From: an uncultured Clostridia bacterium
GTDB lineage: Bacteria > Bacillota > Clostridia > Oscillospirales > Acutalibacteraceae
Length of the DNA: 34,728 nucleotides
Direction: 5' to 3'
NCBI GenBank assembly: GCA_947585615.1
Contig: CANPXD010000014.1
Coordinates: 1 to 34,728, forward strand
Shown here in pieces: positions 3,420 to 32,300 of the stretch (its first letter is position 1; each line of letters starts with the position of its first letter). The notes under the pieces were generated by a model that did not search any database, was not told where the DNA came from, and worked only from the letters and a program-made list of their open reading frames with translations. Made by a program: the position numbers and the translations under genes.

Positions 3420-4172
3420 TCAATCGTCAATGCCTTCCTGCTCCTCAACCTGATTAAGCGGCATAGAAATTTTTACAGAATCGCTTCCCGCAGGAACGGT
3501 CGTTTTATATTGCGAGCCGTATGATACGAGTTTTACTTCAACAGTCACATCTCCCGTATACTCTTCCGTTTCAAAATAGCGTTCACTATTCAGATCAAGC
3601 TTAACGGATTCCGATATGACGCGCTTTCCATTTATAGAGATTTCAAGTGTATCCTCTTTACCGGCGGGTAAAACGACCGTGATTTTGATTTTTCTCGGTT
3701 TGCTGACATCAGGCTGCGGCGGATCAATTGGCGGATTTACATTTCCCTCACTCTGATTGTTATTCCCTGAGCCGCTTCCCTGATTATCGCCTGCGCTGTT
3801 TCCCTGATTATCATTTCCCGAGCCGCTTCCCTGACTGCTGCTGCCGGACCCGCTGTTCTGATTACCGGCAGAGTTGCCGCTTTGTTTGTTATTTCCGGAA
3901 CCTGAATTGGCGCTGTTGTTCTTTGCCGTTGTCACAACCCGTGTAACAACCTCGCCTTGATCATCAGTCACAGGCTCTCCCTGTGCGTCGGTAACAATTT
4001 CGGTTACAATCGGTGTGTCTACATATCCGTTGTCGGATTTTCTTGTCAAAGCAAATAGAACTGCCGCTGCAATAATCGCTATGACGGCTATCGCAGCAAT
4101 TATGATTACGATTTTCTTCCTTTTTGCTTTTTCACTGCTGTTTTCATTAACATTATTAGTATTTTCTTCCAT
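3420..4172 (-). CDS. Single-pass membrane-anchored protein with Gly/Ser/Asn/Gln low-complexity linker and C-terminal beta-rich domain
   Basis: ORF of 250 aa; N-terminal KRKKIVIIIAAIAVIAIIAAAVLFAL TM segment, then a GSGNNKQSGNSAGNQNSGSGSS... linker and a KIKITVVLPAGKEDTLEISINGKRV domain. RBS upstream. Confidence 0.8.
   Translation of the reverse strand: MEENTNNVNENSSEKAKRKKIVIIIAAIAVIAIIAAAVLFALTRKSDNGYVDTPIVTEIVTDAQGEPVTDDQGEVVTRVVTTAKNNSANSGSGNNKQSGNSAGNQNSGSGSSSQGSGSGNDNQGNSAGDNQGSGSGNNNQSEGNVNPPIDPPQPDVSKPRKIKITVVLPAGKEDTLEISINGKRVISESVKLDLNSERYFETEEYTGDVTVEVKLVSYGSQYKTTVPAGSDSVKISMPLNQVEEQEGIDD
3741..3930. repeat. Degenerate short tandem repeats encoding the Gly/Ser/Asn/Gln linker
   Basis: Recurring units such as GAGCCGCTTCCCTGATTATC / CTGTTTCCCTGATTATC on the + strand within 3420-4172. 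Confidence 0.6.
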
Positions 4173-8348: not shown

Positions 8349-8474
8349 TCCAATCGAGCCTAATTATATCACAAGCAAAATAATTAAACAAGGATTCCCT
8401 TTAATGTAAATAATAGTTATTTTATAATACACGGCACATAGAACACATCAAAATCAACGTTGAAACAGAAAATA

Positions 8475-8498
8475 CCCCTCTCCCAGGTGGGAGAGGGG
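8475..8498 (-). terminator. Stem-loop terminator of cassette 1
   Basis: CCCCTCTCCC-AGGT-GGGAGAGGGG, perfect 10-bp stem directly after the 47-aa ORF; same position as the hairpins in cassettes 2 and 3. Confidence 0.8.
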
Positions 8499-8520
8499 AA
8501 AATTGTTTCATTCCGGATTT

Positions 8521-8664
8521 TTAAAATTCAACTTCCGCAGGATAACCGCCGTCGAGGTTTATCTCGCCCCAGTCAGTGCCGCTTATAAGTCCTGCTGTCG
8601 CAATATCATCACGAAGAGAATATTTAAGGATTTCAATATCCGGCTCTTTGTAAATTCTTTTCAT
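8521..8664 (-). CDS. 47-aa small conserved ORF, cassette 1
   Basis: Manual translation: MKRIYKEPDIEILKYSLRDDIATAGLISGTDWGEINLDGGYPAEVEF*; AGGAGG RBS overlaps/abuts the stop of the giant gene; homologous ORFs at 19449-19592 and 29221-29364. Below the 60-aa cutoff apparent in the supplied track. Confidence 0.88.
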   Translation of the reverse strand: MKRIYKEPDIEILKYSLRDDIATAGLISGTDWGEINLDGGYPAEVEF

Positions 8665-8676
8665 CTATAGGCCTCC

Positions 8677-11600
8677 TTATTTCAGCACCGCGTCGGAAAC
8701 AACATTTGAATATACGTATTTTTGTTCTCCGCTGCTGTCCTTGTAGCTGATATACGCAACGTATGAAATATTTGCGCTGTCGCCGGGCATATTTGAGAAG
8801 CCGATTGATACCGCGAACTGATTGCCGGTCTGATTCAAAATCTTTGATACGGGAACTGAGAGATTAAGAACCTTGTTTGTGCTGTTGACATCCGAAAGTT
8901 TCAGATTATCAAGCGGTCTGTGTGTCGTATCTAAAAATGAGCCTGCGTCAAGTACAATTCCGGCGCCTGTAATTGTTATATCGCTGTCTCTGAGCTGAGC
9001 AAACGAACCAACAAACTGTGCCTTTTTGCCTGAAATAACAGGCGCTTTGTTTACCGATACATCGAAATTGGTGTCTCCGTCTCCGCCTGTACCGTTATTT
9101 GACACATAATCCATGTAAAGGCTGTTGTAAGTGTCGATGGTAAGAGGCTTAACGTTCAGATCCTGGCAGGCGTAGAAAGAATAGGTGTTACCCATAGCTA
9201 AGATTTTATGCGTATCATTATCCATAAGCGCTGTAATCTGATCAAATCCCGAACCAATTTCGTGTTCAACCGTTACAAGCTGATTGTAGTAAACGTGCTG
9301 CGGCGTTCCGTATACACCGTCATTTTCACTGTTCAGAGTCGTTATGGTGTAATCCGCCTTGTCGCCGTTCGGAACAAATTTAACAAGCAGCGTGGTATCT
9401 TCGGTGAAGGTCGGTTCCTGTGAAGGAACATACGTTTCCCCTGTCGGCTGACCGTCTTTCATAACCGTATAGCTTTCTATGCTGTAATATAAACGCTGCT
9501 GAACAGGAGTATCGGAAAGCTGATAAGCGTTGCCTGATTCAACATAGTCAAACGCAATCGTATTCTGAACGCGTGTATTATCAATAAATCTTATCTTAAC
9601 ATACTGCGCGTCATTCTGCTTATCGTCAACATAAAGGTCTGTATCGCCTCTTACATTAAAGCTGTAGGTTTCAGCGGAAAGCAGATACTTCGGTTGCTGT
9701 TTATTAACAGTACCCTTCGCGCTTACAGTGCAGTACCAGTCAACAGAACCGTTGCTGTTTGTAACCTCAACGCTGTCGCCGTAATGGAACTTTGTCGCGT
9801 TTTCTTCTGTATCAAGACGGAAGTTTGAATAGCTCTTTGAATCTTCATCATAGTCGGCTTTCAGATACTGAACCGAATTGTCTGCGTTGTGAAGCGCTAC
9901 CGTGTATTCATATCTGGTGCCGGTCTTATTCAACTCAGACTCGATTTTTGTTATTGCGTCCTTATAATTGTAGGTAAAATAAGACTTTCCGTTTATGGAA
10001 ACGGCATCCTGTGTCAACGTTTTGCTGATAACCTGATTAATAACTTCCGTGTTATAATCATCGCCGTTGCGCGATCTTGCTTCGTCTACAACCGCAAGAT
10101 ACGCGTCACTGGATGACGGAAGAAGAAGATTGTTTGCGTTTTCGTCGGAATAGATGAGCGCCTTAAGAAGTTCGCCCTCTGCTTCTACCATAAGCTCTTC
10201 GCTCTTCGGTACGTCCATAGCCTCTTTTGCCGAGACTCCGCTGTCGTCGTTTATAAACTTGACATATTTGAAGCCTTTGAAAGTTATACCGCTGAATCTC
10301 GGCTGTGAATATACTGAATCAATGATATTTTTAATGGTTTGATATGTGTGATTATCAAGATCATATTGTTCTGTATTGAACAGCGTCTGAAGCTTGGCGT
10401 CCATCGTCTCCTCGGTAAGCGCTTCATCATATACCAAATCAAGGAATTTTCCGAGATTTGTCATCGACTCATAGGTATATTTTCCGTAGTTGAGGTCGGC
10501 AAACAGATCATATTCCTTCGCGTAGTAACCGGGCGTTTCATTACCCGAAAGAGAATCATATCTTGTTTCAAAGTTCGTGGCACGGAGCTGGAGCGCCTTG
10601 TAAGCGTTCCAAATTTTATCATATCTGTCCTGGAATGCTTTTGTTATGTCGCCTTCGTCTGCAAGCCATACCTCAAACGGAGCTTCCGCTTCAACAATGG
10701 CATTTTTAAGGTTCTCGGTGGAAGCCGCCGTATAGTCTGTCGTTGCGACAAGGGTTTCCATTTTTTCAATCAGAGCGGTAAGGTTTGTTGTGTCAATAAC
10801 CTTTGCCGTTCTTACGTAAGCAAGACTTGGAGAAGCCACCCACATATGTTGATTTGATGAAGATGTCGCACCTTGATATCTCATACGATAGTAAGCAACA
10901 AATCCGAGGTTTCCGTTTTTGGTGTATGTGATCGGTCTTGCCGCGGTGATGTTCGGATTTTCCGCGGCGCTTGCGGGGTCGTCGGGGACATTCGGAAGCT
11001 GAGCGCTGTTTCCGGTAATATTAAGTCTCTGTGACGCTTTGAGTCTGACTATTCCGCCGTTGGGTATTGTAAGAACGCCCTTAAAGTCTTCTGTTGTCGT
11101 TTTAAGTTCGTCATCCCATACATAGCTTTTGCTTGTCACTGAATTGCCGTTCTTGTCTGTGCCCAAAGAACCGGCGTTATTGCCGTCGGTTGTAGTCATA
11201 CCCATAATATCATAAATCTCAAATGTTCCCGTAGTACTACCGTCCGTGCCGGAAGTACTTGCCGTCAGTCCTCCCGGAAAGCTTGACGCTCTTGCACCGT
11301 TTTTATCATTTCCGACGATTTCTTCGTCAGCGCTGTTTCGTGGTGGAGCTATATCAAGATTTATTGAATCAAGAAGCTGCGGACTGTAGCCGTTCGACCC
11401 TTCATTATTCTGCCATTCAATTTCCGCGTCTCTTAAATCTATGGCATTTTCACCTGTCATATCAGTGGAAAGACTTCTTATAAACGTACCGGAATCCTCA
11501 TAGAATTTGTATCTAAAAGTATTCGTTGTTGTATGGTCATATGTCCAACCCCAACCTTTAACTGTATGAGAATATTTCACTTCGTGACCTTCAAAACTGT

Positions 11601-13728
11601 CGTTCCCACTTGAAGCAACGCGCGCTCCGTTCATATTATATGAAAACGCGCCGTACAAGCCCTCTATAGCGTCTACAACCGCGTAAACATAGTCTTTATA
11701 GCTTGAAACGAGCTGTTCGGCATAGCCCTGTCTTCCCGGCTCATTGAGAATCGCGGTTCCGTTTTCGGGATCCTTAAAACGCTCCGCCAGGGAAACGGCG
11801 TCCGCAAGGACTGCGTAGTTGGCGTATTTTTCGCTTTCCTGAGCAATCTTTGCCGCTTGTTCAAGCGCGCTGTTGAGCGATTCATTATTCGCGTAAGCAA
11901 CCACTGCGTCGAAATCTATTGACATATTTATGATAAGTTTTTTAATGGCCGCGATCTGCGCTATAACCTTAACATATTCGTCTCCCTCGTCATACGGTGT
12001 GAACTCATCATAGGGATAATGCTCAATGGAACCCCAGACAGCGATTTTTGCGTTGTCTATCGCGTTCTGGATTTCCGTAGCCTTGATGTTTGCTCCATCG
12101 GGATCGTCAAAGCCCTTGAAGTATTCCTTGTTGTTTACTATATACTGAGCGTTTTCTATAACATATTCAAGCAGATTCGTGTCAACGTGGTTTCCTTTCG
12201 GGATAAGCTGGAATTCATTCAGCTCCGTTGCCTTCGCGGCTGCTTCTTCCGATCTTGACGGAGGATAGTTTTCCTCTTCATCTACATTCAGAATTACATC
12301 CTGTATTATCTTGATGCTGTCTTCATAAAGCTTTCTGAAGTCCGACCAGTTGGTAAAGACATCGTCAGGGTCGCTCGGAGTATTCGGATCCTCATCATCA
12401 AAGGCAACATACCCGTCATAGCGTTCTTTATTATTAAGGATTGCTTTTTTCAGAAGATCATAACCGCTCGGATCGGGTGTTGCCTCGCTGTTATTCAGAT
12501 CGTTGACATATTTTTCCATATCCGTTTTGATTTGATCCAGTGTGGCTGTTATTCCTTTAGAGGAAAAATCATTCTTGTAGCTGTTCAAATCAAATTTCAT
12601 CGCGGCTTCATACGCCTTTAAAACATCGCGCATACCGCCGCCGCCATAGGAATTGGTTCCGCCTATATTGATTTTCTGGCTATTGTTGCTTATCGCGTCG
12701 TTGACAAGCGTGCCGTTTATCATATATATGGGTGAACTGCTGAACCAAGCATCATCGGAATCTTCAGTTTCACCGGTGCCCATATACCATATCGGATTGA
12801 TCGTCGCGTTATATTCCGTAACTGTCATCGGATAAATGATATTCATAGAATTCGCATATGCCGGCTCCTCAGCAAAATCAACCTGTTTCCCGAGTTGAGC
12901 ACTTCTATGAAGCGTAGACTGAATACCATTTGCGCCCGTAGTCATTGAATAGCCGAAAGCGTTAGCTCCGAATTGTTTCCATGCCCATGAAAAATCAAGA
13001 TGCTCAGCACCATAATTGCCGCGCCAATAATTTACAAGAGAAAACTGATTTGAATCTACAAATTTATTCTCTCCCGTAACAGGATACAGGGCATAAACAT
13101 ATCTCGTTTTGTTTTGTGTGGCAATCGCTTTTGCCATAATGGGCACTCTTGGAGTATGTTCTCCGTCATAAACTACTACAGCCGAAGTATAATAAAGCCT
13201 TACTTCTGTTGCCGGGTTCTTACTGCTTCCATTATCTGTATTTTTTGAACCTGCAAGATTCTCTCGCGTTATGTCAGGCATATATAAAATGTTTTGATAG
13301 CATTCACTTTCCAGACCGCCATAGTAGTCATTTTCAAACTGCGGCATAGTGTTAGGTACGGCAGGAGCGGTCCACGCGCCGGAATTGACCATAGTCTCCG
13401 TTGCCCCTTTAAGTTTTTCAGCGGCTTCTCTTGCGTCAGCGTCAGAAACAGCAGCCTCCGGCTGAGCAGGACCGCTTTCATTGGTTTTGTACTTCATAAA
13501 AATGTACGCGTCGTATTTCTGAAACGCTTCAATGTATGCGTTGTACGCATCGACCATACCGCTTTTGTATACCGTTCCGTTCATTGCCGATTCATAGTTT
13601 TCAATGGCAGTGTCAAGAAGTGAAGCGGGATTTTCTTCATCTGCAAATACCGTAAACGGCAAAGATGTAAGCACCATAATAAGCGAAAATACGGCGCAGA
13701 GCATCCTTTTTGATAGCTTAGCTTTCAT
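8677..13728 (-). CDS. Giant secreted/surface protein, cassette 1 (start corrected from 13905 to 13728)
   Basis: Signal peptide MKAKLSKRMLCAVFSLIMVLTSLPFTVFADE with RBS AAGGAGGTTATTTT just upstream; the 59 extra N-terminal codons in the ORF track read through the RBS/leader. 1683 aa. FIVAR-like helical segments (ALIEKMETLVATTDYTAASTENLKNAI...). C-terminal module shared with 14349-19436. Confidence 0.92.
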   Translation of the reverse strand: MKAKLSKRMLCAVFSLIMVLTSLPFTVFADEENPASLLDTAIENYESAMNGTVYKSGMVDAYNAYIEAFQKYDAYIFMKYKTNESGPAQPEAAVSDADAREAAEKLKGATETMVNSGAWTAPAVPNTMPQFENDYYGGLESECYQNILYMPDITRENLAGSKNTDNGSSKNPATEVRLYYTSAVVVYDGEHTPRVPIMAKAIATQNKTRYVYALYPVTGENKFVDSNQFSLVNYWRGNYGAEHLDFSWAWKQFGANAFGYSMTTGANGIQSTLHRSAQLGKQVDFAEEPAYANSMNIIYPMTVTEYNATINPIWYMGTGETEDSDDAWFSSSPIYMINGTLVNDAISNNSQKINIGGTNSYGGGGMRDVLKAYEAAMKFDLNSYKNDFSSKGITATLDQIKTDMEKYVNDLNNSEATPDPSGYDLLKKAILNNKERYDGYVAFDDEDPNTPSDPDDVFTNWSDFRKLYEDSIKIIQDVILNVDEEENYPPSRSEEAAAKATELNEFQLIPKGNHVDTNLLEYVIENAQYIVNNKEYFKGFDDPDGANIKATEIQNAIDNAKIAVWGSIEHYPYDEFTPYDEGDEYVKVIAQIAAIKKLIINMSIDFDAVVAYANNESLNSALEQAAKIAQESEKYANYAVLADAVSLAERFKDPENGTAILNEPGRQGYAEQLVSSYKDYVYAVVDAIEGLYGAFSYNMNGARVASSGNDSFEGHEVKYSHTVKGWGWTYDHTTTNTFRYKFYEDSGTFIRSLSTDMTGENAIDLRDAEIEWQNNEGSNGYSPQLLDSINLDIAPPRNSADEEIVGNDKNGARASSFPGGLTASTSGTDGSTTGTFEIYDIMGMTTTDGNNAGSLGTDKNGNSVTSKSYVWDDELKTTTEDFKGVLTIPNGGIVRLKASQRLNITGNSAQLPNVPDDPASAAENPNITAARPITYTKNGNLGFVAYYRMRYQGATSSSNQHMWVASPSLAYVRTAKVIDTTNLTALIEKMETLVATTDYTAASTENLKNAIVEAEAPFEVWLADEGDITKAFQDRYDKIWNAYKALQLRATNFETRYDSLSGNETPGYYAKEYDLFADLNYGKYTYESMTNLGKFLDLVYDEALTEETMDAKLQTLFNTEQYDLDNHTYQTIKNIIDSVYSQPRFSGITFKGFKYVKFINDDSGVSAKEAMDVPKSEELMVEAEGELLKALIYSDENANNLLLPSSSDAYLAVVDEARSRNGDDYNTEVINQVISKTLTQDAVSINGKSYFTYNYKDAITKIESELNKTGTRYEYTVALHNADNSVQYLKADYDEDSKSYSNFRLDTEENATKFHYGDSVEVTNSNGSVDWYCTVSAKGTVNKQQPKYLLSAETYSFNVRGDTDLYVDDKQNDAQYVKIRFIDNTRVQNTIAFDYVESGNAYQLSDTPVQQRLYYSIESYTVMKDGQPTGETYVPSQEPTFTEDTTLLVKFVPNGDKADYTITTLNSENDGVYGTPQHVYYNQLVTVEHEIGSGFDQITALMDNDTHKILAMGNTYSFYACQDLNVKPLTIDTYNSLYMDYVSNNGTGGDGDTNFDVSVNKAPVISGKKAQFVGSFAQLRDSDITITGAGIVLDAGSFLDTTHRPLDNLKLSDVNSTNKVLNLSVPVSKILNQTGNQFAVSIGFSNMPGDSANISYVAYISYKDSSGEQKYVYSNVVSDAVLK

Positions 13729-14330: not shown

Positions 14331-14407
14331 TTCAAGGAGGTTATTTTTATGAAAGTTAAGCTATCAAAAAGGATGCTCTGCGCCATGCTTTCACTCATTA
14401 TGGCGCT
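14331..14407 (+). repeat. 77-bp perfect match (RBS plus signal-peptide start) to cassette 3
   Basis: TTCAAGGAGGTTATTTTTATGAAAGTTAAGCTATCAAAAAGG...ATGGCGCT is the reverse complement of 34652-34728; the match reaches the window edge, so it may be longer. Confidence 0.85.
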
Positions 14408-17400
14408 TACGTCTTTGCCGTTTACGGTTTATGCCGAAACAGAGGAAGAAATAGCAGCTCAGGCAATATCGGCTCTGAATGAAGCAATAGAAAATTACGA
14501 AATAAAGATGAACGGCACAATTTTCACAAATATGAGCAGCGCCTATGAAGCATACAGAAACGCTCATTTATTGTATGATGATTATGTTTACGGCCCGGCA
14601 GACCAAAGGCCCGAAATAGGCGATGACGATTCAACAGACAAGACAACCGTTAAAGGTGCTGCAAAGGTGCTGAATGATGCCGTTGAACAAATGGAAGTAT
14701 GGGACGCCGCAAATGGTCAGATTGCTGTTGAGGATAAAAAAGCATCCGGTCCGGATACGCTCGAAGCTATTAAATTTGTTAATCCAACAACCAACGATGA
14801 CGGAGAACATACGAGTGCCGAAGGCACTTATCAAAATATCATCTATTCTCCGATCATTACGAGAGACAATCCGTCTGCCTCAATCGGTGTAAGTCAATCA
14901 ACAACAAAGCTTTACTACGGAACTCCCGTTGTGCTTTACACCGCAGACCCCGAGGAAGGCAAAAAGCCAAGAATACCCATTCTTGCGGCAGGTCAAAGTG
15001 ATAACGAGAGTCACGAATACTACATCTGGGCAATTTATCCGACTGCCGACACGGGTTCAATTGCATTTTCAACGGAAATATCACTACCCGATTACTGGTT
15101 GTATCATGATGCTACCAATTCGCTTGATCACTGGTGGGCGTATGATCCTGCAAAATCAATAAAACAGTCTGCATACAGTGCCTATACGGGTATGCCCGGA
15201 ATTCAGTCCGCTTCCTATAGGAGCAATCGTCTTAACTTTAATAACATTAATGGAAGCATTATGGCGAACTATATCAATGTTGATTATAAAATGGACGACG
15301 GCGAATATACAAAAACAATTAACGCTTCCTGGTTCGTCTCAACAGATGTATCTGCAAACAGTCAAAACTACAAAAACGGGGCAGGTACGCCTATCTATAT
15401 GGTGAACTATGAAGCGCTGACCGACGCCATCACAAGAAACAGCCAGAAACTTAGTATAGGTACATCACACTGCTACGGTAACGGCGGTCTTGAAGCTGTA
15501 ATCAAAGCTTTTGATGATGCCATAAAATATGATCCCACATCGTCGTTCAGTTCCGTTACGAATGTGGCGGAATCGGTAAATAAAGCAGGCGAAACAATAG
15601 AGTCTCTCGTAAACGCGCTTGACGCTTCCGAGAGAACGCCCGACCCGACTGTTTATAAAGATTTGAAAGAGCAGATTGAGGTTTACCGTGAGCGTTATGA
15701 CCAGTACAGCAACTATACGGAGGACAATCCCGCTAACAATCCGAATCTTCTATTCTCAAACTGGGAAGCTTTCAAAACGCTGTACGAAAACGCACTCCAA
15801 ATTATGTCCGACGCAACGTCTGCCGAGCCTCCATATCCCGATGACCGGGATAAGGGAGACGAGAACAGTCTCTATTTGAAAGCCGAAAAAGCGGCGGCAG
15901 ACCTTAAGGCGTTTGTTTTTCAGCCGCAGTCAAAGAGAGTTGATACGTCCGTTCTTGAAAACGTTATAGGCAACGCTGAATACGTCGCCAACAACCCGAA
16001 TTTCTTTGTTCTTGAAACAACGTATACAAATCCTGACGGCTCTTCCGGCACAAAAACGGTTACGCCACAGGAAATAAAAGACGCCGTTAAAGCAGCCAAA
16101 GAAGCAATCTGGGGAGGCAATGCCGATTATTATCCGCTTGAAGAGTATAAGCTTGAGGAATCGCCGGAAAACTTTATGAAGGTTATGGCGCAAATGGGGA
16201 ATATTACTGCTCTTATCCGTGATATGCAGATAAATTTCGAGGCAATTGTCCCCTATGCGAACGACGCAAAAAAACCCGACGGCTATTCGTTGAACGGCGC
16301 GTTGAAAAGAGCCAATGACTTTAAGCCCGAGGAATACTCAAACTATATTGTTCTTCAAAACGCTGTTGACACGGCAAACCTCTTTAAGCAAAAGGGCAAT
16401 CCGCTTGCCAATCTTTCTGAACCGGGAACACAGAATTACGCTATGAATCTTGTTGGAAGATACCAGGATACAACGCTTGCGATTGTTGACGCGTGGGGAA
16501 GTCTTTTCAAATCCTTCTCGCATGAGAATAACGGTCAGATCCTATATCCCGGTGACGACCTTATGGTTACTACGGAAAACACTGCAAACTACAATAAAAG
16601 AACGATAACACTCACATTTTCACGCCATAACAATTTAGCGTTTTTAAGAACGACCCATGACGCTATGGCGCTTGATATATGCAATCCTGTTTTTTCACTT
16701 ACTCAAGACGGTTTTAATCTTGAAGGTACCTATAATGATTCTGCCGGAGGAAAATGGACGCTTGTTGATTCCATCAACTTCAATGAGTCTGAAGATGTCA
16801 ATACAAAATATAGTGAAACAGACAACACTTATGAGCCTACAATCACAGATAACAATACAAATAAAGCTCATGATCCCACCGGCAGCGATCTAACAACCAT
16901 TCAGGGATTTAAAGGTAATCTTGAAGCGAAAGTCAAAAACACAGATACCAATTATGTAATCAGCAATATTTACGGAAAGACTACCACCAATTCAAGTAAT
17001 TTGTTCGGCAGGCTTGCAAACGGGAAAGGTGTAGGAAAAGATCTCTTAGCTACAGAAACACCTTTCGACGATGCCCTTAAAATAACAGAAGCAAACAACA
17101 CCGGCGGTCTTTTAACTGAAACAAACGGAAGTATGTCAACATATATTTCTGACTACAAACTCAATGTTTCTCCGTCTAATCCAAACACAAATCCCGGCGC
17201 TGATTTAAACGGCGCTTCAATGGTTGACTATACATACAGCGGTCATCTCGGAATGATGACAAGAGCAATGTATCGGGGAGATTATAATTGGGATTTGAAT
17301 CGAACTTATAAATGGCATATCAATTATGGTTATTCAACAGTTCCGTATTCACAGACAACAACAATTATAGACACATCCAATCTTACAGACCTCATCAACT

Positions 17401-19436
17401 GGGTAGACAATAATATCGACACAAATAAGTATACGACCGATTCGCTCAATAAACTCGCGGAGGCGGAAGCGGCGGCAGACGCTCCTATTGATTACTGGAC
17501 GATGAACGATGGTATGACTATTCAACAAAAGTATGACGAAATTGTAAATGAGGTCAATTCAAGATACAAAAAGCTCTGGGAAGCCTCTCACGAATGGAAC
17601 GCGGAAAGCGACTCCGACCAGGTTTACAATCCTGAAACGGATTTCGGCCTTATAGAGCGCGCTGACTTTGCCTCCGATTATGAGCTTGATAAGCAGGGCA
17701 GTCCCGTTCCCGACGGTGAAGGCGGCTACAAGATTGAAAATTACGGCTATATTGACACGTGGTATCTTCTTTTCAGAGATATAAACGAACATGAATATAC
17801 CTCTGAGTCTCTTAAAAAGCTTGCCGAAGCGATTCGTGATTTCAAATATTTAAACTACACCCCCGAGCAAATGGCAAATGTACCCATAACAGAGCAGGAA
17901 GCGATTGAGGCGGAACGCCAGGAATTTGCAAAATGGATTTACAATTCGGACTTTAAGGCATGGCTTGATAACAGTGAAGCAAGCCCCCTTGTTCCGGCAA
18001 ATTCAAACCACGAATACGAGAATTTATATAATGGCGTCAAATCGCTCAACGCCGATGACTACGACACGGGAAAAATCAACGACGCTATTAATGAACACCG
18101 TGAAATTACATATGTTGAGATAAACGGCGAACAAGTCAGAGCGTATGACTATGATGTTGCAATGGCGCACATTGAAACAGTAAAAAATTCTGTCAGCAGA
18201 TATGAATACACGGTTGCCGTTCATGACAGAAACAATTCGGTTCAGTATCTTAAAGCTGATTATGATGAAAGTTCAAAGAGCTATTCCAACTTCCGTCTTG
18301 ATACAGAAGGAAACGCGACAAAGTTCCATTACGGCGACAGCGTTGAGGTTACAAACGGCAGCGGTTCTGTCGGCTGGTACTGCACTGTAAGCGCTCAGGG
18401 TACTGTCAATAAACAGCAACCGAAGTATCTGCTTACCGCTGAAACCTATAGCTTCAATGTAAGAGGAAATACAGATCTCTATATAGGCGACAACGGCGAT
18501 GACAGCGAGTATGTAAAAATTACATTTATCGATAATACTCACGTTCAGAACACCATTGCCTTTGACTATGTTAAATCAGGTGAACCTTATCCTCTTTCAA
18601 ATACGACAGTTCCGAATCGTATGTTCTATACAATAGACAGCTATACCGTTATGGAAGACAGAAAACCCACGGGAGAACCGTATACTTCCGCTGACTCGCC
18701 AAGCTTTACAAAGGATACGACGCTCCTTGTCAGCTACACGCCGATCGGAACAGCTGCTTACAAAATCGTTACACTTCCGTATAACGACAATGGGGAGTCA
18801 CAAACCCAGCAAGCGAATTATAATACGCGTGTAACCGTTTACAGCCCCGGAGGAGAGAGCTTTGACCAGGTTATGGCCCTTATGGATAATGATACGCATA
18901 AATTATTAACAATGGGCAACACATATACTTTCTACGCCTGCCAGGATTTGAATGTTAAACCTCTTACCGGTAACACATACAGTGACCTCTATAAAAAATA
19001 CGGAACAGGCAACGGCGGAGACGGTGATGAGAACTTTGATGTATCTGTAATAAAATCTCCGGTTATTTCAGGCAAAAAAGCGCAGTTTGTCGGCTCATTT
19101 GCTCAGTTGAAAAGCGACGGAATAACGATTACAGGAGCAGGCATTATTCTTGACGCCGGAACCTTTGTTGATTCAATCCATAGACCGTTAGGCGATCTTA
19201 AGCTTTCCGATGTCAACAACGCCAAGAAGATTCTTAATCTCTCAGTTCCCGTATCATCGATTCTGAACCAGACAGGCAATCAGTTTGCGGTATCAATCGG
19301 TTTCTCAAATATGCCTGCGGAGCTGCAGGAAAGCGGAGCGGCAATTTCATATGTTGCATATATAAGCTACAAGGACAGCGCAGGAAATCAGAAATATGTA
19401 TATTCAAACGTTGTCGACACTGCGGTGCTGAAATAA
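14349..19436 (+). CDS. Giant secreted/surface protein, cassette 2
   Basis: ORF of 1695 aa; signal peptide MKVKLSKRMLCAMLSLIMALTSLPFTVYAE; paralogous along its length to cassette 1; C-terminal ~410 aa nearly identical (NSVQYLKADYDESSKSYSNFRLDTEGNATKFHYGDSVEVTN...KSPVISGKKAQFVGSFAQL...YVYSNVVDTAVLK). Confidence 0.95.
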   Translation: MKVKLSKRMLCAMLSLIMALTSLPFTVYAETEEEIAAQAISALNEAIENYEIKMNGTIFTNMSSAYEAYRNAHLLYDDYVYGPADQRPEIGDDDSTDKTTVKGAAKVLNDAVEQMEVWDAANGQIAVEDKKASGPDTLEAIKFVNPTTNDDGEHTSAEGTYQNIIYSPIITRDNPSASIGVSQSTTKLYYGTPVVLYTADPEEGKKPRIPILAAGQSDNESHEYYIWAIYPTADTGSIAFSTEISLPDYWLYHDATNSLDHWWAYDPAKSIKQSAYSAYTGMPGIQSASYRSNRLNFNNINGSIMANYINVDYKMDDGEYTKTINASWFVSTDVSANSQNYKNGAGTPIYMVNYEALTDAITRNSQKLSIGTSHCYGNGGLEAVIKAFDDAIKYDPTSSFSSVTNVAESVNKAGETIESLVNALDASERTPDPTVYKDLKEQIEVYRERYDQYSNYTEDNPANNPNLLFSNWEAFKTLYENALQIMSDATSAEPPYPDDRDKGDENSLYLKAEKAAADLKAFVFQPQSKRVDTSVLENVIGNAEYVANNPNFFVLETTYTNPDGSSGTKTVTPQEIKDAVKAAKEAIWGGNADYYPLEEYKLEESPENFMKVMAQMGNITALIRDMQINFEAIVPYANDAKKPDGYSLNGALKRANDFKPEEYSNYIVLQNAVDTANLFKQKGNPLANLSEPGTQNYAMNLVGRYQDTTLAIVDAWGSLFKSFSHENNGQILYPGDDLMVTTENTANYNKRTITLTFSRHNNLAFLRTTHDAMALDICNPVFSLTQDGFNLEGTYNDSAGGKWTLVDSINFNESEDVNTKYSETDNTYEPTITDNNTNKAHDPTGSDLTTIQGFKGNLEAKVKNTDTNYVISNIYGKTTTNSSNLFGRLANGKGVGKDLLATETPFDDALKITEANNTGGLLTETNGSMSTYISDYKLNVSPSNPNTNPGADLNGASMVDYTYSGHLGMMTRAMYRGDYNWDLNRTYKWHINYGYSTVPYSQTTTIIDTSNLTDLINWVDNNIDTNKYTTDSLNKLAEAEAAADAPIDYWTMNDGMTIQQKYDEIVNEVNSRYKKLWEASHEWNAESDSDQVYNPETDFGLIERADFASDYELDKQGSPVPDGEGGYKIENYGYIDTWYLLFRDINEHEYTSESLKKLAEAIRDFKYLNYTPEQMANVPITEQEAIEAERQEFAKWIYNSDFKAWLDNSEASPLVPANSNHEYENLYNGVKSLNADDYDTGKINDAINEHREITYVEINGEQVRAYDYDVAMAHIETVKNSVSRYEYTVAVHDRNNSVQYLKADYDESSKSYSNFRLDTEGNATKFHYGDSVEVTNGSGSVGWYCTVSAQGTVNKQQPKYLLTAETYSFNVRGNTDLYIGDNGDDSEYVKITFIDNTHVQNTIAFDYVKSGEPYPLSNTTVPNRMFYTIDSYTVMEDRKPTGEPYTSADSPSFTKDTTLLVSYTPIGTAAYKIVTLPYNDNGESQTQQANYNTRVTVYSPGGESFDQVMALMDNDTHKLLTMGNTYTFYACQDLNVKPLTGNTYSDLYKKYGTGNGGDGDENFDVSVIKSPVISGKKAQFVGSFAQLKSDGITITGAGIILDAGTFVDSIHRPLGDLKLSDVNNAKKILNLSVPVSSILNQTGNQFAVSIGFSNMPAELQESGAAISYVAYISYKDSAGNQKYVYSNVVDTAVLK

Positions 19437-19448
19437 GGAGGCCGACAG

Positions 19449-19592
19449 ATGAAAAGAACTTACAAAGAGCCGGATGTTGAAATCCTTAAATATTCTCTTC
19501 GTGATGATATTGCAACAGCAGGACTAAGCGGTGGGCTGGACTGGGGTGATATAAACCTCGACGGCGGTTATCCTGTGGAAGTTGAATTTTAA
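19449..19592 (+). CDS. 47-aa small conserved ORF, cassette 2
   Basis: MKRTYKEPDVEILKYSLRDDIATAGLSGGLDWGDINLDGGYPVEVEF*; RBS AAGGAGGCCGACAG, 12 nt after the stop of the giant gene. Confidence 0.88.
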   Translation: MKRTYKEPDVEILKYSLRDDIATAGLSGGLDWGDINLDGGYPVEVEF

Positions 19593-19643
19593 AAATCCGG
19601 AATGAAACAATCAATCCCCCTCTTCCGTTCGGAAGAGGGGGAT
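19560..19643 (+). repeat. Left arm of an 84-bp perfect inverted repeat (3' end of the 47-aa ORF plus terminator)
   Basis: GACGGCGGTTATCCTGTGGAAGTTGAATTTTAAAAATCCGGAATGAAACAATCAATCCCCCTCTTCCGTTCGGAAGAGGGGGAT is the exact reverse complement of 29170-29253. Confidence 0.9.
19614..19643 (+). terminator. Stem-loop terminator of cassette 2
   Basis: ATCCCCCTCTTCC-GTTC-GGAAGAGGGGGAT, perfect 13-bp stem followed by CTTTCTT. Confidence 0.85.
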
Positions 19644-25162: not shown

Positions 25163-25510
25163 ATCCAAGTTTAATGGACGTCAAAACCGTAACCGTTTTT
25201 GCGAAAGAATTTGAACGTTAGAGACCTCCTGTAAGTTAAAGTTGAGGTATCGGCAGTGACGGATTGTTCGGATAAACCGTGTCGATTTGGAAGAAATAAA
25301 TTTCCGGGCTACGGTTTGTACCATTCGTTGATGCCTTTACGGACAATCGGCACCCTATGGAAATACGGGATGCTGCACACCCCGCCACTCACCTCCACGA
25401 TTCCTGCAGTGTGCCGACACTTCAGAATGCGTATAGCAAAAATGACTAAACAGTTGAAAGACCGTCGGATTAGCTGCATAACCGCTTCGGCGTCTTTCGC
25501 GGAAAGGCGG

Positions 25511-27301
25511 ATGATTACAGAAGTGAAAGAAAATTTAAAATATATAATCGGTAACTGGCTCAAATGGGACAAAAAAAGTCTGCTTTTCTTTTTTGTGCGC
25601 GTTCCTGCGCTTGTTCTCCAGCCTCTTGTAACGGCATATATACCAAAGGCGATGATAGACTGTATCAGCAACGGCGCAACACCCGGCAGACTTACACTTA
25701 TTGTCGCTCTTTTAAGTCTGCTGCTGACATTTACAATCTGGATGGATCCTTTTATGAAAGAGCTTATCAGAGGCAGTGCCCGTATTATCCGTATGAGATA
25801 TGCAGTTATGGCTTTTAGAAAAAATCTGCATACCGATTATTTGAACATAGAGAGTCTTGAGGGCAGAGAAATTCAGAAACGCGCTGAGGAATTCTATAAC
25901 GCGCGTTTTTCCTCAGGCGCGGATTTTATGGAAACTTGCAATGACTTTCTTGTTTGCGTTGTGGGAGTAATCGCTTCAGCGGCACTGATTTATAGAATAA
26001 ATATTTTAATGATTTTGATTATTCTTCTGACCTGCGCAGGTGAATTTTTCCTGCTGAGGCTGCTGAATAAAAAACAGAAAAAAACGCTTGACAGTGTCTC
26101 AAAATTCACCGCAAAACTTGATTATTTTTATAAGCTGAGTAAGAACAGCGACGCGTCAAAGGATATAAAAATCTACAACTTTCAGAATTATTTTATAAAA
26201 ACAACAGCTAAAATCACAGCGGATATAGAGAAAATCATTTCAAAATATACACATCAGAGTGCTGCCGTAAGCGGAACAAGGGCGCTGCTGAATCTTGTAA
26301 GGCAGTTTATCGCTTATGCCTATCTGATTTATCTCGTAACCGCGTCAAAGCTTTCTGTTTCCGACTTTGTTTTCTACTTCGGAATCATAACAGGATTTTC
26401 AAACTGGATTATCAACCTTGTAGTGTCCTACTCAAAATTGGAACGCTGCTGCAATGACTGCGCGTCATTCAGAAAATATGTTGAAAGCGATGAGGAAAGC
26501 AAGAATAAACCCGACGCGGATTTTGATACGATAGAATCAATAGAATTCAAAAATGTGTCATTTACATATCCCTCTGCCGAAAGCAGCACGATAAACAATA
26601 TGTCATTTAAAATTGAAAAGGGCGAAAACATAGCTATTGTCGGAGAAAACGGCGCGGGCAAAACAACTGCAATAAAGCTTCTCTGCGGTCTGTATTACCC
26701 AACAGAAGGCAATATACTTATAAATAACAGAAGCAGCCGTGACTTTTCGAGGGACAGCTATTTTGATTTGTTTTCCGTTGTTTTTCAGGATTACTATTTT
26801 ATGCCGATGACTATTGCGCAGAACATCTGCGCAAAAAAAGATTACGACAGAGAGAAGCTGTATTCTGCGCTTGAACAGGCAGGAATCGCTGATAAAATAA
26901 ACCGTCTTGAAAAAAAGGAAAATGCTCTTATGGTGCGCGAGGTTTACAGGGACGCGGCAGATTTTTCAGGCGGAGAAAAACAGAAACTTCTGCTTGCAAA
27001 GGCAGTATACAAAAATGCGCCGGTTCTTATTCTTGATGAGCCGACTGCGGCTCTCGATCCCATATCCGAAAACGAGCTTTATCTGAAATACAACGAGCTG
27101 ACTGAAAACAAAATTTCATTTTTTATTTCCCACCGTCTTTCTTCAACACGCTTTTGCGACAGAATTCTGTTTATAAAAGACGGCAGAGTGGCTGAGTGCG
27201 GAACGCACGAGGAATTGATGCACCTCAAAGGAGCGTATTACAGAATGTATCAGCTCCAGAGCTGTTATTATAAGGAAATGGGGGTTGAACTGTATGAGTA
27301 A
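25511..27301 (+). CDS. ABC transporter, fused permease/ATP-binding protein (exporter type)
   Basis: Likely start MITEVKENLKYIIGNWLKWDKKS with AAAGG upstream (track start 25256 is unsupported); Walker A GENGAGKTT, Q-loop VVFQDYYF, signature FSGGEKQK, Walker B VLILDEPTAALD, H-loop SHR. Confidence 0.9.
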   Translation: MITEVKENLKYIIGNWLKWDKKSLLFFFVRVPALVLQPLVTAYIPKAMIDCISNGATPGRLTLIVALLSLLLTFTIWMDPFMKELIRGSARIIRMRYAVMAFRKNLHTDYLNIESLEGREIQKRAEEFYNARFSSGADFMETCNDFLVCVVGVIASAALIYRINILMILIILLTCAGEFFLLRLLNKKQKKTLDSVSKFTAKLDYFYKLSKNSDASKDIKIYNFQNYFIKTTAKITADIEKIISKYTHQSAAVSGTRALLNLVRQFIAYAYLIYLVTASKLSVSDFVFYFGIITGFSNWIINLVVSYSKLERCCNDCASFRKYVESDEESKNKPDADFDTIESIEFKNVSFTYPSAESSTINNMSFKIEKGENIAIVGENGAGKTTAIKLLCGLYYPTEGNILINNRSSRDFSRDSYFDLFSVVFQDYYFMPMTIAQNICAKKDYDREKLYSALEQAGIADKINRLEKKENALMVREVYRDAADFSGGEKQKLLLAKAVYKNAPVLILDEPTAALDPISENELYLKYNELTENKISFFISHRLSSTRFCDRILFIKDGRVAECGTHEELMHLKGAYYRMYQLQSCYYKEMGVELYE

Positions 27302-29120
27302 GGTGAATACGGTATTTAAAATATACAGAGAAATACAGAGCCTTGAAAAACGTATACTGCCTGCTGTTGCCGTACAGTCCGTAACAGCCTCTGTAAGACC
27401 GTTTGTAAACATATTTTTTACGGCAAAGCTCATTGATCTGCTTCAGGCAAAAGCTGATTATAAAACGCTTGTTTTTTACATCTGCCTTGCGATAGCAATA
27501 AATTTCGTGCTGTTTTTTCTTGGAAGTTTTCTTGACGATTATTCGGAAAATCTGAGAAATCTTCTTTTAAATAAGGAAAATAAAAAGGTAGCCTCTAAGC
27601 TTTATAAAACAGAATACAGTATGCTTGAAAACAGTGATTTCAAACAGCTTGTTCACAGGCATGAGGAGGCGGAAAAAAGCCGATGGGCACGCTTTCCGTA
27701 TTTCGTTTGGACAACATTCAGGTTTTTAAACGGTTTGTTCACCCTGATAATATCGGTTATAATCATCATTCCGCTGCTAAAAGCGGGTTTTATAACAACA
27801 GGCAATTCATTCTTTGAAAAGCCGGTATTTCTTATAACGATAATATGCTCGATTCTCGCCATGGCAGTGATTATTCTGCTTGTCGCTGTCAATTTAAATA
27901 AATCATATTTAAAGGCAAATGAATCTTATGCGGAGCTTGACAGAATTTTTTATGCGTTTATTGATATTTTTGCCGATTACAGAACGGGAAAGGAAATCAG
28001 GCTTTATAAAGAGCAGGATTTGATAGACGGTATTGCTACGGATAAAATACTTACAGACGGCGAAAAAACCCTGAGGCGTATATCCATGCACACAGCGAAG
28101 GCAAGTTCATTTGTTGCCATACTCGGCGCGCTTGTAGGCTTCGGCGTTTATCTCTTTATAGGAATAAAGGGACTGTTCGGAATTTTCGGAATCGGCTCTC
28201 TTGTGCTTTATTGCGGTTCTTTTATGCAGATTATAAACGGGATAATGATGATGGCAAACACCCTTGGCAAGCTCGAGGAGATAATACCGCTTGCCGAATG
28301 TTATTTTGAAATTCTTAATACAAAAGACAATATGCGCTTCGGCAGCAAAGAGCTTGATCCGAACGGAAAATTTAAAATAGAATTCAAGAACGTATCGTTT
28401 AAATATCCCGGCACTGAAAATTACGCGCTCAGAGATATTAATATAAAAATTGAAAACGGCGAAAGTCTTGCCGTAGTCAGCAGAAACGGCAGCGGCAAAA
28501 CAACATTTATAAAGCTGCTTTGCAGACTTTATGATGTTACCGAAGGAGAAATTCTGATTAACGGAATTAATATTGCGCAGTATAGTCAGGATAGCCTGAA
28601 CAGAATTTATTCTGTTGTTTTTCAGGATTTTAAAATTTTTTCCACCACACTTGCGCAAAACATTTCAGCCGGCGGCAGTTATAACAAAAATAGGCTTATG
28701 ACCTCGCTCGAAAAGGCAAATATAAAGAACCGCGTGCTGGAAATGAAGAATGCCGAAAACACATATATGTATAAAGATCTGGACAGAGCAGGCGTTGAAA
28801 TTTCAGGCGGAGAGGCGCAGAGGCTTGCGCTTGCAAGAGCGCTCTATAAGGACGCGCCTATTGTGATTCTTGATGAGCCGACTGCGGCGCTGGATCCGAT
28901 TGCCGAAAATGAAATATACAGCCGTTTTAATTCTTTTGTTGATAATAAAACAGCAATTTATATTTCTCATAGACTTTCAAGCTGCGTTTTCTGCGACAGA
29001 ATAGCTGTTTTTGACAATGGCGCTCTTGTTCAGACAGGAACGCATTCATCGCTCCTGTCCGACAAAACCGGTGTGTATAAAAAACTCTGGAGCTCACAGG
29101 CTGAATATTATATTCATTAA
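27294..29120 (+). CDS. ABC transporter, fused permease/ATP-binding protein (partner of the preceding gene)
   Basis: Start ATG at 27294 overlaps the upstream stop (ATGAGTAA, 8 nt); Walker A SRNGSGKTT, VVFQDFKIF, signature ISGGEAQR, Walker B VILDEPTAALD, SHR. Confidence 0.9.
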   Translation: MSKVNTVFKIYREIQSLEKRILPAVAVQSVTASVRPFVNIFFTAKLIDLLQAKADYKTLVFYICLAIAINFVLFFLGSFLDDYSENLRNLLLNKENKKVASKLYKTEYSMLENSDFKQLVHRHEEAEKSRWARFPYFVWTTFRFLNGLFTLIISVIIIIPLLKAGFITTGNSFFEKPVFLITIICSILAMAVIILLVAVNLNKSYLKANESYAELDRIFYAFIDIFADYRTGKEIRLYKEQDLIDGIATDKILTDGEKTLRRISMHTAKASSFVAILGALVGFGVYLFIGIKGLFGIFGIGSLVLYCGSFMQIINGIMMMANTLGKLEEIIPLAECYFEILNTKDNMRFGSKELDPNGKFKIEFKNVSFKYPGTENYALRDINIKIENGESLAVVSRNGSGKTTFIKLLCRLYDVTEGEILINGINIAQYSQDSLNRIYSVVFQDFKIFSTTLAQNISAGGSYNKNRLMTSLEKANIKNRVLEMKNAENTYMYKDLDRAGVEISGGEAQRLALARALYKDAPIVILDEPTAALDPIAENEIYSRFNSFVDNKTAIYISHRLSSCVFCDRIAVFDNGALVQTGTHSSLLSDKTGVYKKLWSSQAEYYIH

Positions 29121-29169
29121 AAGGCAATACCCTGACTGAAAAAAATGACGCGTAAATAATCATCATAAA

Positions 29170-29199
29170 ATCCCCCTCTTCCGAACGGAAGAGGGGGAT
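29170..29199. terminator. Stem-loop terminator of cassette 3, shared bidirectionally with the ABC operon
   Basis: ATCCCCCTCTTCC-GAAC-GGAAGAGGGGGAT, same stem as cassette 2 in inverted orientation. Confidence 0.85.
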
Positions 29200-29253
29200 T
29201 GATTGTTTCATTCCGGATTTTTAAAATTCAACTTCCACAGGATAACCGCCGTC
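29170..29253 (-). repeat. Right arm of the 84-bp perfect inverted repeat
   Basis: Exact reverse complement of 19560-19643. Confidence 0.9.
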
Positions 29254-29364
29254 AAGGCTTATATCGCCCCAGTCCGGCGCGCCGCTTAGTCCTGCTGTTG
29301 CGATTTTATCGCAAAGATTATATTCAAGAATTTCAATATCCGGCTCTTTGTAAGTTCTTTTCAT
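29221..29364 (-). CDS. 47-aa small conserved ORF, cassette 3
   Basis: MKRTYKEPDIEILEYNLCDKIATAGLSGAPDWGDISLDGGYPVEVEF*; RBS GGGAGGCCGACAG, 15 nt after the stop of the giant gene. Confidence 0.87.
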   Translation of the reverse strand: MKRTYKEPDIEILEYNLCDKIATAGLSGAPDWGDISLDGGYPVEVEF

Positions 29365-29379
29365 CTGTCGGCCTCCCAA

Positions 29380-32300
29380 TCATTTAAGCTCAGCTTTTAC
29401 AACATCGGAGTATACGGTATGCCTGCCCGTTCCATCTTTGTATATTACATATGCGCAATAAGAAACCGCAAGTCCTTCAGGATGATTTTTGCCGTAACCT
29501 ATTGAAGCCGCAAATTCGTTGTCAGCCATCATTGTTGCCAACGGTGCGGAAAGGTTGAGAACCTTCTTTGCATTGCTTACATCACTGAGCGTGATTTTTT
29601 CTGACTGATTGCCGCTTGCGTCAAGTACAATGCCGACTCCCTCAACAGTTATATCTTCTTTTGTCGCGAAGAAGCCTACAAACTGTGCTCTCTTTTCCGG
29701 ACTTGTAACAGGTGTGCTGATTACGGAAACCTCAACCGTGTCTGTATGTCCGGCAAGTTCACTTTCGCTTACCTGCTGAATGGCAACGCTCTGGCAAGCG
29801 TAGAAACTGTAAGTGTCGCCGTATTTAAGGATTTTTCCTGTATTCGCGTCTTTCAAAGCTGCCGCGCCCGGAATGGATACGGTTATATATTGATTCCATA
29901 CAATGCCTGTCTTCGGGTATCCGTCGACACTGCTTCCGCTTTCGTCGCGAAGATCTATTTCATAACCGCCTGATCTTTCTTCCGGCTTGTAATTTACAAG
30001 GAGCGTAACTTTCTCCGTTCCTTCGTCAAAGGTTATTGTTCCGTCTGTCTGATAGGTCTGCTCGTTTGCCATATCCTTGAAACCGTCTACCGTGAAGAAG
30101 ATACGATTCGGAACAGGAGCGTCGGACAAATTATATTTGATTGTTTTGTCCGGCTGTATTTCCGCATAATCATACGCGATCGGAACTTTTGAATCCGGAT
30201 TATTTATAAATGTAATCTGAATAAATTTGCTTTCTTCTTCTTCGTTCTTCGCGGTTGTGTAAAGCTCTGTGTCACCTCTTACATTAAATGTATAGGTTGG
30301 AGCGGTGAGCATATAAGAAGTTTCCTGAGTCTGGTTCGTGCCTTTTGCCGTTACCTTGCCGGACCACGCGACCGCTTCTTCGCCTCCCGTGGGGTTTTTA
30401 AGTTCAATGGCGTCGTCATAATAGAACTCTCCCGCCTCAGACGCTGAGGTTGAATAACCGACCGTATAACCGATACCATCCGCGCCATTTGTTCTTGTTA
30501 CATAATACGGTTTCTTGTTCGCGCCGTAAACCGTAATCTTGTACTTGTAATGGTAATTGTTGATAGCGGTTTGTATAGTCTCTGCGGAAGCGTCATAATT
30601 ATAGCCTGTATAATCCTTGCCTGCGATTGTTATTGTTTCGCTGACGCTTGCCTTTGCCTTTTCAACTTCCTTGCGGATTTCATCGATGTTGTATTCGTCC
30701 GCATTGTCTATCTTTTCAAATTTTTCAAGCTCGTCATCATATGCGTCGGAATTTGTTGTATTTTCTTCCAGCTTAACCTGGGCGGCGGCTAACTTTCTGC
30801 GTTCGCTCGTAATTTGACTGTTTTCTTTGTCACTTGTTCTGCTCTGCTTATAGGTTGAGTAATCAAAATATGATGCGCTGTCAACAATATTTTTGACCTC
30901 TTTAAGAGCCGCGGCGGTATACGTATACGTTTCGCTTTCAAGTGCGCTGAGAAGATCGTTTTTGTTTGAATTATAAACCGCCCAGTCAGCAGGTGTATAT
31001 AGCTCCTGACCGCATTCGTCGCATTTTCCGTTACTGTCTAATGTATCTACACATTCTACATAGCCGTCGGATTTTGCGGGACAGCCGTTTTCGCATACAT
31101 AGGAATGAGAATGTCCGTCACCTTTAAGCTCATCTTTGTCTTCAGGTCCCGCTAAATCTTCGTTGAGATTTGGAGAATATACGAATTTATGTTCAACATA
31201 ATTTGAGCAGAATTCGCACTTGCCGTCTGAATTGTCGCCGTCCGTGCATCCTTCAATTATTCCTGTGTTTAATTCGCACGGTTCGTTAGCGCAGGTTTTG
31301 GTGTGCGTTCCGCATTCGTCGCTTGCGGCATAGTTCAGATCATGCTCTAAATATCCGCGGCAAAGGTCGCACCTTCCGTCGGCAAAGAGATCTCCTTCGC
31401 TGCATTTTTGAGCCTGCTTCGCCTCTTCCAATTCCTCACCTGTGAGATCGTGATTATGGCAGTCATAGGTATGCGTGCCGCAGGAGGTCTGTATATATTC
31501 AAGGTGATGTTCCATTGTATCATGGCAGTAGTCGCAAAGCAATGAGCCTGCTTCGGCAGCTTCATTGGTGCATGATTCAGGAACTCTCGTGTGCTCACTG
31601 CAGTCTTCTCTTGAACAGTATTTGTAATGTTTACCGCAGTATGCCTGCTCGTCAGTTCCTTCCAGAGGTTCTGAGTCATAAATATAGTCATGACCGAGAG
31701 CGGCAACATTCGTATCTGTTTTTTGATTCGAGCATATGCCGCAAAGATAAACAGCTGTTCCCGTTTCCGTACAGGTAGGCGCTTTTGTCGTTCCGTCAAC
31801 AGTTATCTCGGAATAATTGTGCTCTCCGTCGGGATTAATTGCAGCCTTTACGGCTTCAAGAGCGGAATTAAGATTGTTGTATCTCGTCTGGCATTCATTT
31901 ACAATCGCGTCGTTTGACATAGTTTTATATTCCATGTCCTTTTTGGCGGCACCGAGCTTAGCTATAAAATCAGCGTATTTTGCCTGATCGTAGCAGCCGT
32001 AAGCGTTATCGAACGATTCTGCCAGAAACTGGTTTGCCTCGTCTATTTTTTCAAACAGGGGAACTACGTCAATAACCGTTATGGTTTGAGTTAAATTCGA
32101 AAAAGTTCCGTCAAAAGTTTTGTGATTATTACCTGAACGAAAAGCAAAGTAGTAATGAATCGGAGGAGAAGCATAATTATATATTTTTATATCTTCAACA
32201 GTATATTCCTTATTTTCATTTACTTTGGAAATACTAGTGGTTATATCTCCAAGAACAGTTAAATTCCCTTCTTGAGTAATATTAATATAGTTTTTGGTGT

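Follow-up and report, generated by a model that had tools for sequence, protein, structure and literature searches.

Three giant secreted proteins encoded in the window analysed here, which is the whole stretch of 34,728 nucleotides from the genome of an uncultured Clostridia bacterium (a draft assembly of 1.98 Mb, 96.65% complete), are each followed by a short open reading frame (ORF). The one behind the first giant, on the minus strand at positions 8521-8664, begins with ATG and encodes a peptide of 47 amino acids (MKRIYKEPDIEILKYSLRDDIATAGLISGTDWGEINLDGGYPAEVEF). The locus raises the question of whether so short a reading frame is a gene and, if it is, what it does behind so large a protein.

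The Peptide Gene and Its Copies

A sequence-only reading of the locus had claimed a 47-residue peptide with two further conserved copies, and both were found, at 19449-19592 on the plus strand (copy 2) and at 29221-29364 on the minus strand (copy 3, which starts at the ATG at 29364; the 53-aa version in the ORF list starts further upstream, at a TTG). A fourth copy is located on another contig of the same genome (G000:C57:13533-13673) and is 74% identical to copy 2. All four copies start 12-17 nt past the stop codon of a giant ORF (12 nt for copy 1), and a GGAGG or AGGAGG ribosome-binding site (RBS) precedes every one of them, as the claim of a strong site had implied; for copy 1 it is the GGAGG at 8672-8676 on the minus strand. 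Copy 1 is followed by a terminator-like hairpin (8471-8501, minus strand; -22.1 kcal/mol when folded, z -2.5), and terminator-like inverted repeats lie after copy 2 (19613-19643, plus strand) and copy 3 (29169-29199, minus strand). The concentration of changes at residues 27-30 was also borne out by the comparison of the copies; the description of the differences as mostly conservative, however, fails for some residues outside that stretch (R18C and D20K in copy 3).

Nucleotide identity between the copies is 78-90% within the peptide ORF; over the final ~300 nt of the neighbouring giant ORFs it is 51-57% for most pairs and 79% for copies 1 and 2. In comparison with the fourth copy, nucleotide identity drops to 47% directly past the stop codon. 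The NG86 dN/dS ratio was 0.26-0.43 in every pair of the four copies, and a ratio near 1, which would have refuted the peptide, was thus not obtained. In every pair, simulated neutral change yielded more amino-acid differences than the real copies show (P = 0.0015-0.07 for the single pairs, which are not independent). Synonymous divergence between copies 1-2 and 1-3 amounted to 0.24-0.36 in the peptide versus 0.99-2.0 in the giant end. This difference points to gene conversion or additional nucleotide constraint as well. Because of this lowered synonymous divergence dN/dS is not decisive by itself; the decisive evidence is the protein motif, which is kept across genera. Judged from these sequence comparisons, the 47-residue peptide is encoded by a real, conserved gene, and the genome contains at least nine genes of this kind.

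The homology among the copies in the window extends into the 3′ UTR. A repeat shared by copies 1 and 3 (8491-8676 versus 29191-29376) stops at the stop codon of the giant; the peptide, its RBS and the 3′ flank are 84% identical between these two copies, and the giant ends are 51% identical. The position of this boundary in the aligned sequences suggests gene conversion or a separate spread of the peptide gene.

Distribution and Conserved Features of the Peptide Family

No models among those of Pfam, NCBIfam and PHROGs matched the peptide, nothing resembling it was found in phage records, and no Rfam family was matched anywhere in the window. The search with a single sequence returned only the peptide's own genome and two weak relatives; a profile built from eight sequences gave matches in 56 of the 201 genomes of the taxonomic family and in 52 of the 61 sampled genomes of the genus, with up to 14 peptides per genome. 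Nine peptides were found in the genome of the window itself, on contigs C14 (three), C57, C22, C1 (two), C40, and C10. Beyond the taxonomic family the peptide is rare, with two further genomes in a 399-genome sample of the phylum that included few members of the family. Weak matches of the peptide profile (A1) in genomes G148 and G192 lay inside long ORFs and are probably false.

The family is characterized by the motif MKxxYxxPxxE[IV]Ex[FY]xxxD[VI][IV][TA]xS|G, anchored on its Tyr and followed by an acidic tail. The peptides were collected by similarity to this very motif, a procedure that sharpens it. The tails are rich in Asp, Glu, and Gly and poor in Lys (1.1%) and Arg (0.3%); their net charge is -2 or lower in 94% of cases, and an aromatic residue occurs among the last five positions of 48 of 72 peptides. 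An RBS-like sequence was recognised for 66 of the 74 distinct peptides. On the strength of these profile matches, the peptide belongs to a large, previously unnamed family. The conservation of the DWG...EVEF tail, pointed out by the sequence-only reading, applies to the four paralogues of the genome but not across genomes, where the N-terminal half is conserved instead and the tails are hypervariable. No tail of the type of the four copies was found beyond them, either in their own genome or in the genus sample.

Pairing With Large Secreted Proteins

Copy 1 is the last gene after a secreted protein of 1,683 aa (8677-13728, minus strand), which has a signal-peptide-like N-terminus (MKAKLSKRMLCAVFSLIMVLTSLPFTVFA) and the C-terminal domain of alignment A4. 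The giants that precede copies 2 and 3 have 1,695 aa (14349-19436, plus strand) and 1,776 aa (29380-34710, minus strand). The pairing was also observed across the family: 64 of the 74 distinct peptides have an ORF of 200 aa or more ending no further than 600 nt upstream, and for 47 of them the distance is no more than 60 nt. A crude signal-peptide rule was passed by 24 of the 31 preceding ORFs with a visible start, and further partner ORFs, among them those of loci L045, L051, and L054, look secreted when read from a non-ATG start. The A4 domain is common to many partner proteins, and its carriers are followed by a peptide in six of ten cases in the genome of the window (G000) and in six of eight in G227; directly after another carrier in G000, on contig C72, lies the second PqqD gene of that genome. 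The C-terminal domain of the giants is modelled as an Ig-like sandwich, for which no significant match was found in the PDB, and domain searches of the giants gave no significant matches. A scan of genome contigs with the giant returned no relatives. We found no description of this pairing of a peptide with a secreted protein in the open-access literature without preprints.

At a few loci (L074:9124-10408, minus strand; L077:4309-5300, plus strand; L045:8787-9332; L111), the tails of some YxxP peptides recur in the C-termini of neighbouring secreted proteins or lipoproteins, as in ...DKGWSDWWTPEF versus ...DEGWSDWWTPEY and ...IELPIIPVK versus ...VIELPIITV, and, across loci, ...DDEGWINKWY versus ...DKDGWITKWY. 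In the window, a 250-aa protein encoded at 3420-4172 on the minus strand has a membrane segment at its N-terminus, followed by a linker rich in Ser, Gly, and Asn, and its end is acidic (...EEQEGIDD); it resembles the linker proteins found beside peptides in other loci.

Co-occurrence and Linkage of the Putative Maturation Machinery

Among the 201 genomes of the taxonomic family, an HPrK-like kinase was found in 53 of the 56 peptide-positive genomes versus 47 of the 145 negative ones (Fisher p = 5e-17), a PqqD protein in 54 of the 56 (p = 2e-11) and an NTP_transf_5 protein in 52 of the 56 (p = 2e-14). The association was retained at the genus level for the kinase (p = 4e-12) and for PqqD (p = 8e-8); no correction for phylogeny was made past that level. 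In about 47 genomes the kinase is present and the peptide was not detected. Physical linkage was observed as well: a kinase gene lies less than 3 kb from 22 of 108 peptide matches, where about 0.4 would be expected. In L046, L054, L058, L075, L076, and L084 the order is secreted protein, peptide, kinase, and PqqD, followed by the genes of an S26-like peptidase, an ABC protein and/or NTP_transf_5; the same parts occur in another order in L060, and the cassette order recurs in L172, which belongs to another bacterial family. The cassette often includes a small lipoprotein or membrane protein that has a Ser/Thr/Gly-rich linker (L018/L048, L020/L049, L060, L076, L077, L173) and a C-terminus resembling (V/I)ELPxxP, e.g., ...KYELPIIPLN and ...VELPFVPFD. 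Longer relatives of the peptide that contain Cys were noted at L079:9825-11182 (minus strand) and L085:8665 (minus strand); in L079 this relative lies behind a radical SAM-like ORF and ahead of HPrK-like and NTP_transf_5 genes, which is a more conventional RiPP arrangement.

All five types of machinery are present in the genome of the window, scattered over several contigs: the kinase on C88, PqqD with NTP_transf_5 on C74, the second PqqD on C72, and the S26-like peptidase with an ABC protein on C25. These loci have counterparts in relatives of the genus, and the association of the peptide with PqqD in this genome is genomic, not local. The window also encodes an ABC pair (25256-29120, plus strand), two adjacent and mutually similar half-proteins that converge on copy 3. 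The pair was considered as a candidate exporter: its identity to the ABC proteins of the compared loci is 22-42%, mostly over partial alignments, and the closest of these lies outside the cassette in L074. Owing to this low identity and to the cassette-type S26 and ABC pair on C25, an exporter role was not assigned to it.

PqqD and NTP_transf_5 were confirmed by Pfam; in NCBIfam, lasso-type PqqD models rank among the top matches for the PqqD proteins but score below cut-off. The kinase had no match in the Pfam search; its alignment (A2) contains a P-loop GxGKST and an NDDKP motif, and a modelled member of the family (pLDDT 92.8) matched PEPCK and HPr kinase folds in the PDB with E values of about 5e-7 to 1e-4. 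According to this model, the kinase partner has the PEPCK/HPr-kinase fold. No enzyme installing a known class-defining RiPP crosslink was identified.

Predicted Leader, Tail, and Maturation

The YxxP motif is an established recognition motif of PqqD-type RiPP recognition elements (RREs; PMC12710340), and in lasso precursors HPrK-like kinases carry out phosphorylation and a nucleotidyltransferase carries out hexosylation (PMC9266682). In copy 1, residues 1-24 (MKRIYKEPDIEILKYSLRDDIATA; 8593-8664, minus strand) form the predicted leader, which contains the YxxP motif and, ahead of G25, an A-x-A box, and residues 25-47 (GLISGTDWGEINLDGGYPAEVEF; 8524-8592, minus strand) form the predicted acidic tail or core. 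The division is inferred from the switch in composition and from a -3/-1 pattern: at one aligned position, small residues occur at -3 and -1 in 57 of 72 peptides, and the window copies read A-T-A|G25 there. Small residues at these two positions are favoured by signal-peptidase-type enzymes. The end of the leader is probably near residue 24, in which case both the variable stretch at residues 27-30 and the DWG...EVEF tail would be part of the predicted product.

Drawing on YxxP recognition, on the precedents for the kinase and the nucleotidyltransferase and on the -3/-1 rule, we propose a maturation by recognition, modification, cleavage, and export. A PqqD-type recognition element would bind the YxxP motif of the leader (residues 1-24), and the HPrK-like kinase, probably together with the NTP_transf_5 protein, would act on the bound peptide. 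The S26 peptidase, of the SipW/Sec11 type, would then cleave the small-x-small box, (T/A)-x-(S/A)|G in general and A-T-A|G25 in this peptide, and the ABC exporter of the cassette would release the acidic, aromatic-ended tail of ~18-23 residues. Since the precursor gene closes an operon that also encodes a large secreted protein, the peptide would be made in step with that protein, and the two would probably act together at the cell surface.

We favour, with a probability of roughly 0.7, the reading of the peptide as a RiPP-like precursor, made up of a leader and an acidic tail that is exported, whose gene is transcriptionally tied to a surface protein; its chemistry and role are inferred. The leader/core layout and the likeness to RiPP precursors suggested in the sequence-only reading are supported by the YxxP half and by the co-occurrence of the kinase, PqqD, and NTP_transf_5; modification and export are unproven, and the binding by PqqD, the type of modification, the cleavage site and the function are likewise deduced. 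Counting against this reading, no product, modification or binding has been observed for the peptide, and the machinery in its own genome is not adjacent to it. The kinase-bearing genomes with no detected peptide, the missing C-terminal Ser and the failure to identify an enzyme for a known class-defining RiPP crosslink count against it as well.

It is also possible, though doubtful, that the tails serve the surface proteins themselves, the kinase/PqqD-matured peptide being bound or attached to its own Ig-like-domain giant at the cell surface. The hint comes from the few loci in which a neighbouring secreted protein or lipoprotein carries the tail sequence of a peptide at its own C-terminus. 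Such an attachment, if true, would be a novel way to decorate or sort the surface proteins of Gram-positive bacteria after translation.

If the peptides are RiPP-like precursors, a genome of this family would harbour as many as a dozen or so unannotated precursors, every one of them coupled to a large surface protein, with a single common maturation set serving all precursors of a genome. RiPP mining keyed to known class-defining enzymes would miss them. The orphan stand-alone HPrK-like kinases and NTP_transf_5 proteins of these Clostridia would acquire a testable role, and peptide maturation would be tied to the display of cell-surface proteins.

Alternative Explanations

The tight coupling to the giant, at 12-17 nt, and the C-terminal domain common to the partner proteins, with a peptide after most of its carriers in both genomes counted, would also suit an unprocessed small partner of the giant translated just before it, such as a cytoplasmic chaperone, a secretion adaptor or an assembly factor. 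We regard this explanation as unlikely, because it leaves aside the co-occurrence and linkage with PqqD, the kinase, the peptidase, and the exporter; moreover, tandem peptides occur behind a single secreted protein (L059, L075), and a generic chaperone would have no need of hypervariable tails. Conservation at the nucleotide level only, of a 3′ UTR, a terminator or a recombination block without a functional peptide, could explain the low synonymous divergence of the peptide relative to the giant end and the homology that continues into the 3′ UTR of the window copies, but it is hardly credible in view of the dN/dS ratios, the end of conservation at the stop codon in the comparison with the fourth copy, the maintenance of the protein motif across many genera and the lack of an Rfam match.

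A true lasso precursor, with T23 in position -2, a core beginning at G25, D31 as residue 7 of the ring and a cyclase encoded elsewhere to thread it, would agree with the YxxP leader, with the T23-x-G25 spacing and a core Asp at position 7, both present in every one of the four copies, with the lasso-type models among the best matches of the PqqD proteins, and with the tailoring of lasso peptides by an HPrK-like kinase and a nucleotidyltransferase (PMC9266682). However, the lasso leader protease PF13471 had no match above cut-off in the genome of the window and 19 relatives, and although G25 and D31 suit core positions 1 (Gly, Ala, Ser or Cys) and 7-9 (Asp or Glu) of a lasso peptide in the four copies of this genome, many relatives have no acidic residue at core positions 7-9 (L019, L021, and L022 do not fit). 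Nor was an Asn-synthetase-like cyclase (PF00733) recognised in any of the cassettes read. For the absence of PF13471 and of a ring-closing residue in many relatives, the peptide is not classed as a lasso peptide, and we consider that identity very improbable.

Comparison With Known Systems

The RiPP-like reading may be placed beside several described systems. The S26-like peptidase shares the GxSMxPL and VLHR motifs with SipW/Sec11-type signal peptidase I and weakly matches TIGR02228; signal peptidases in the PDB and SEC11A are its only sequence matches, none of them significant. In contrast to SipW/Sec11, it has no Pfam match and is encoded beside PqqD, kinase or exporter genes. For the SynChlorMet cassette, the kinase matches only ScmC in NCBIfam, and ScmD appears in the match list of the PqqD proteins, both far below their cut-offs (20.9-39.1 bits versus 125 and 20.7-31.3 bits versus 100, respectively). 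A difference from this system is that a radical SAM-like ORF was seen in one relative (L079) and not in the standard cassette.

The lasso clusters of Firmicutes, such as those of paeninodin and pseudomycoidin, likewise combine a short precursor with a YxxP leader, a discrete PqqD-type B1 protein, an HPrK-like kinase, a nucleotidyltransferase, and an ABC exporter (PMC9266682, PMC7533575). Unlike them, the present system has no PF13471 B2 protease in the genome of the window or the relatives and no cyclase was seen, an S26-like peptidase being present instead; its precursors are scattered, usually one per secreted protein, and have no C-terminal Ser. That Ser is the residue phosphorylated by the PadeK/PsmK kinases (PMC9266682), whereas the window copies end in Phe and 6 of 72 relatives end in Ser. 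The peptide would work like the front half of a lasso peptide.

Two papers on RRE mining do not mention kinases or nucleotidyltransferases, and the recognition-sequence map of 2025 kept only RREs near a lasso cyclase, YcaO, rSAM, LanB or other listed enzymes (PMC12710340), so that a cassette of kinase, S26-like peptidase, and NTP_transf_5 without such enzymes would fall outside it. The broader likeness is to RRE-dependent RiPPs, in which a YxxP leader is likewise combined with a discrete RRE (PMC12710340, PMC7470986). The criterion for an RRE precursor, a short ORF together with an RRE gene, is met by this family, with the two linked in L046, L054, L058, L075, L076, L084, and L172.
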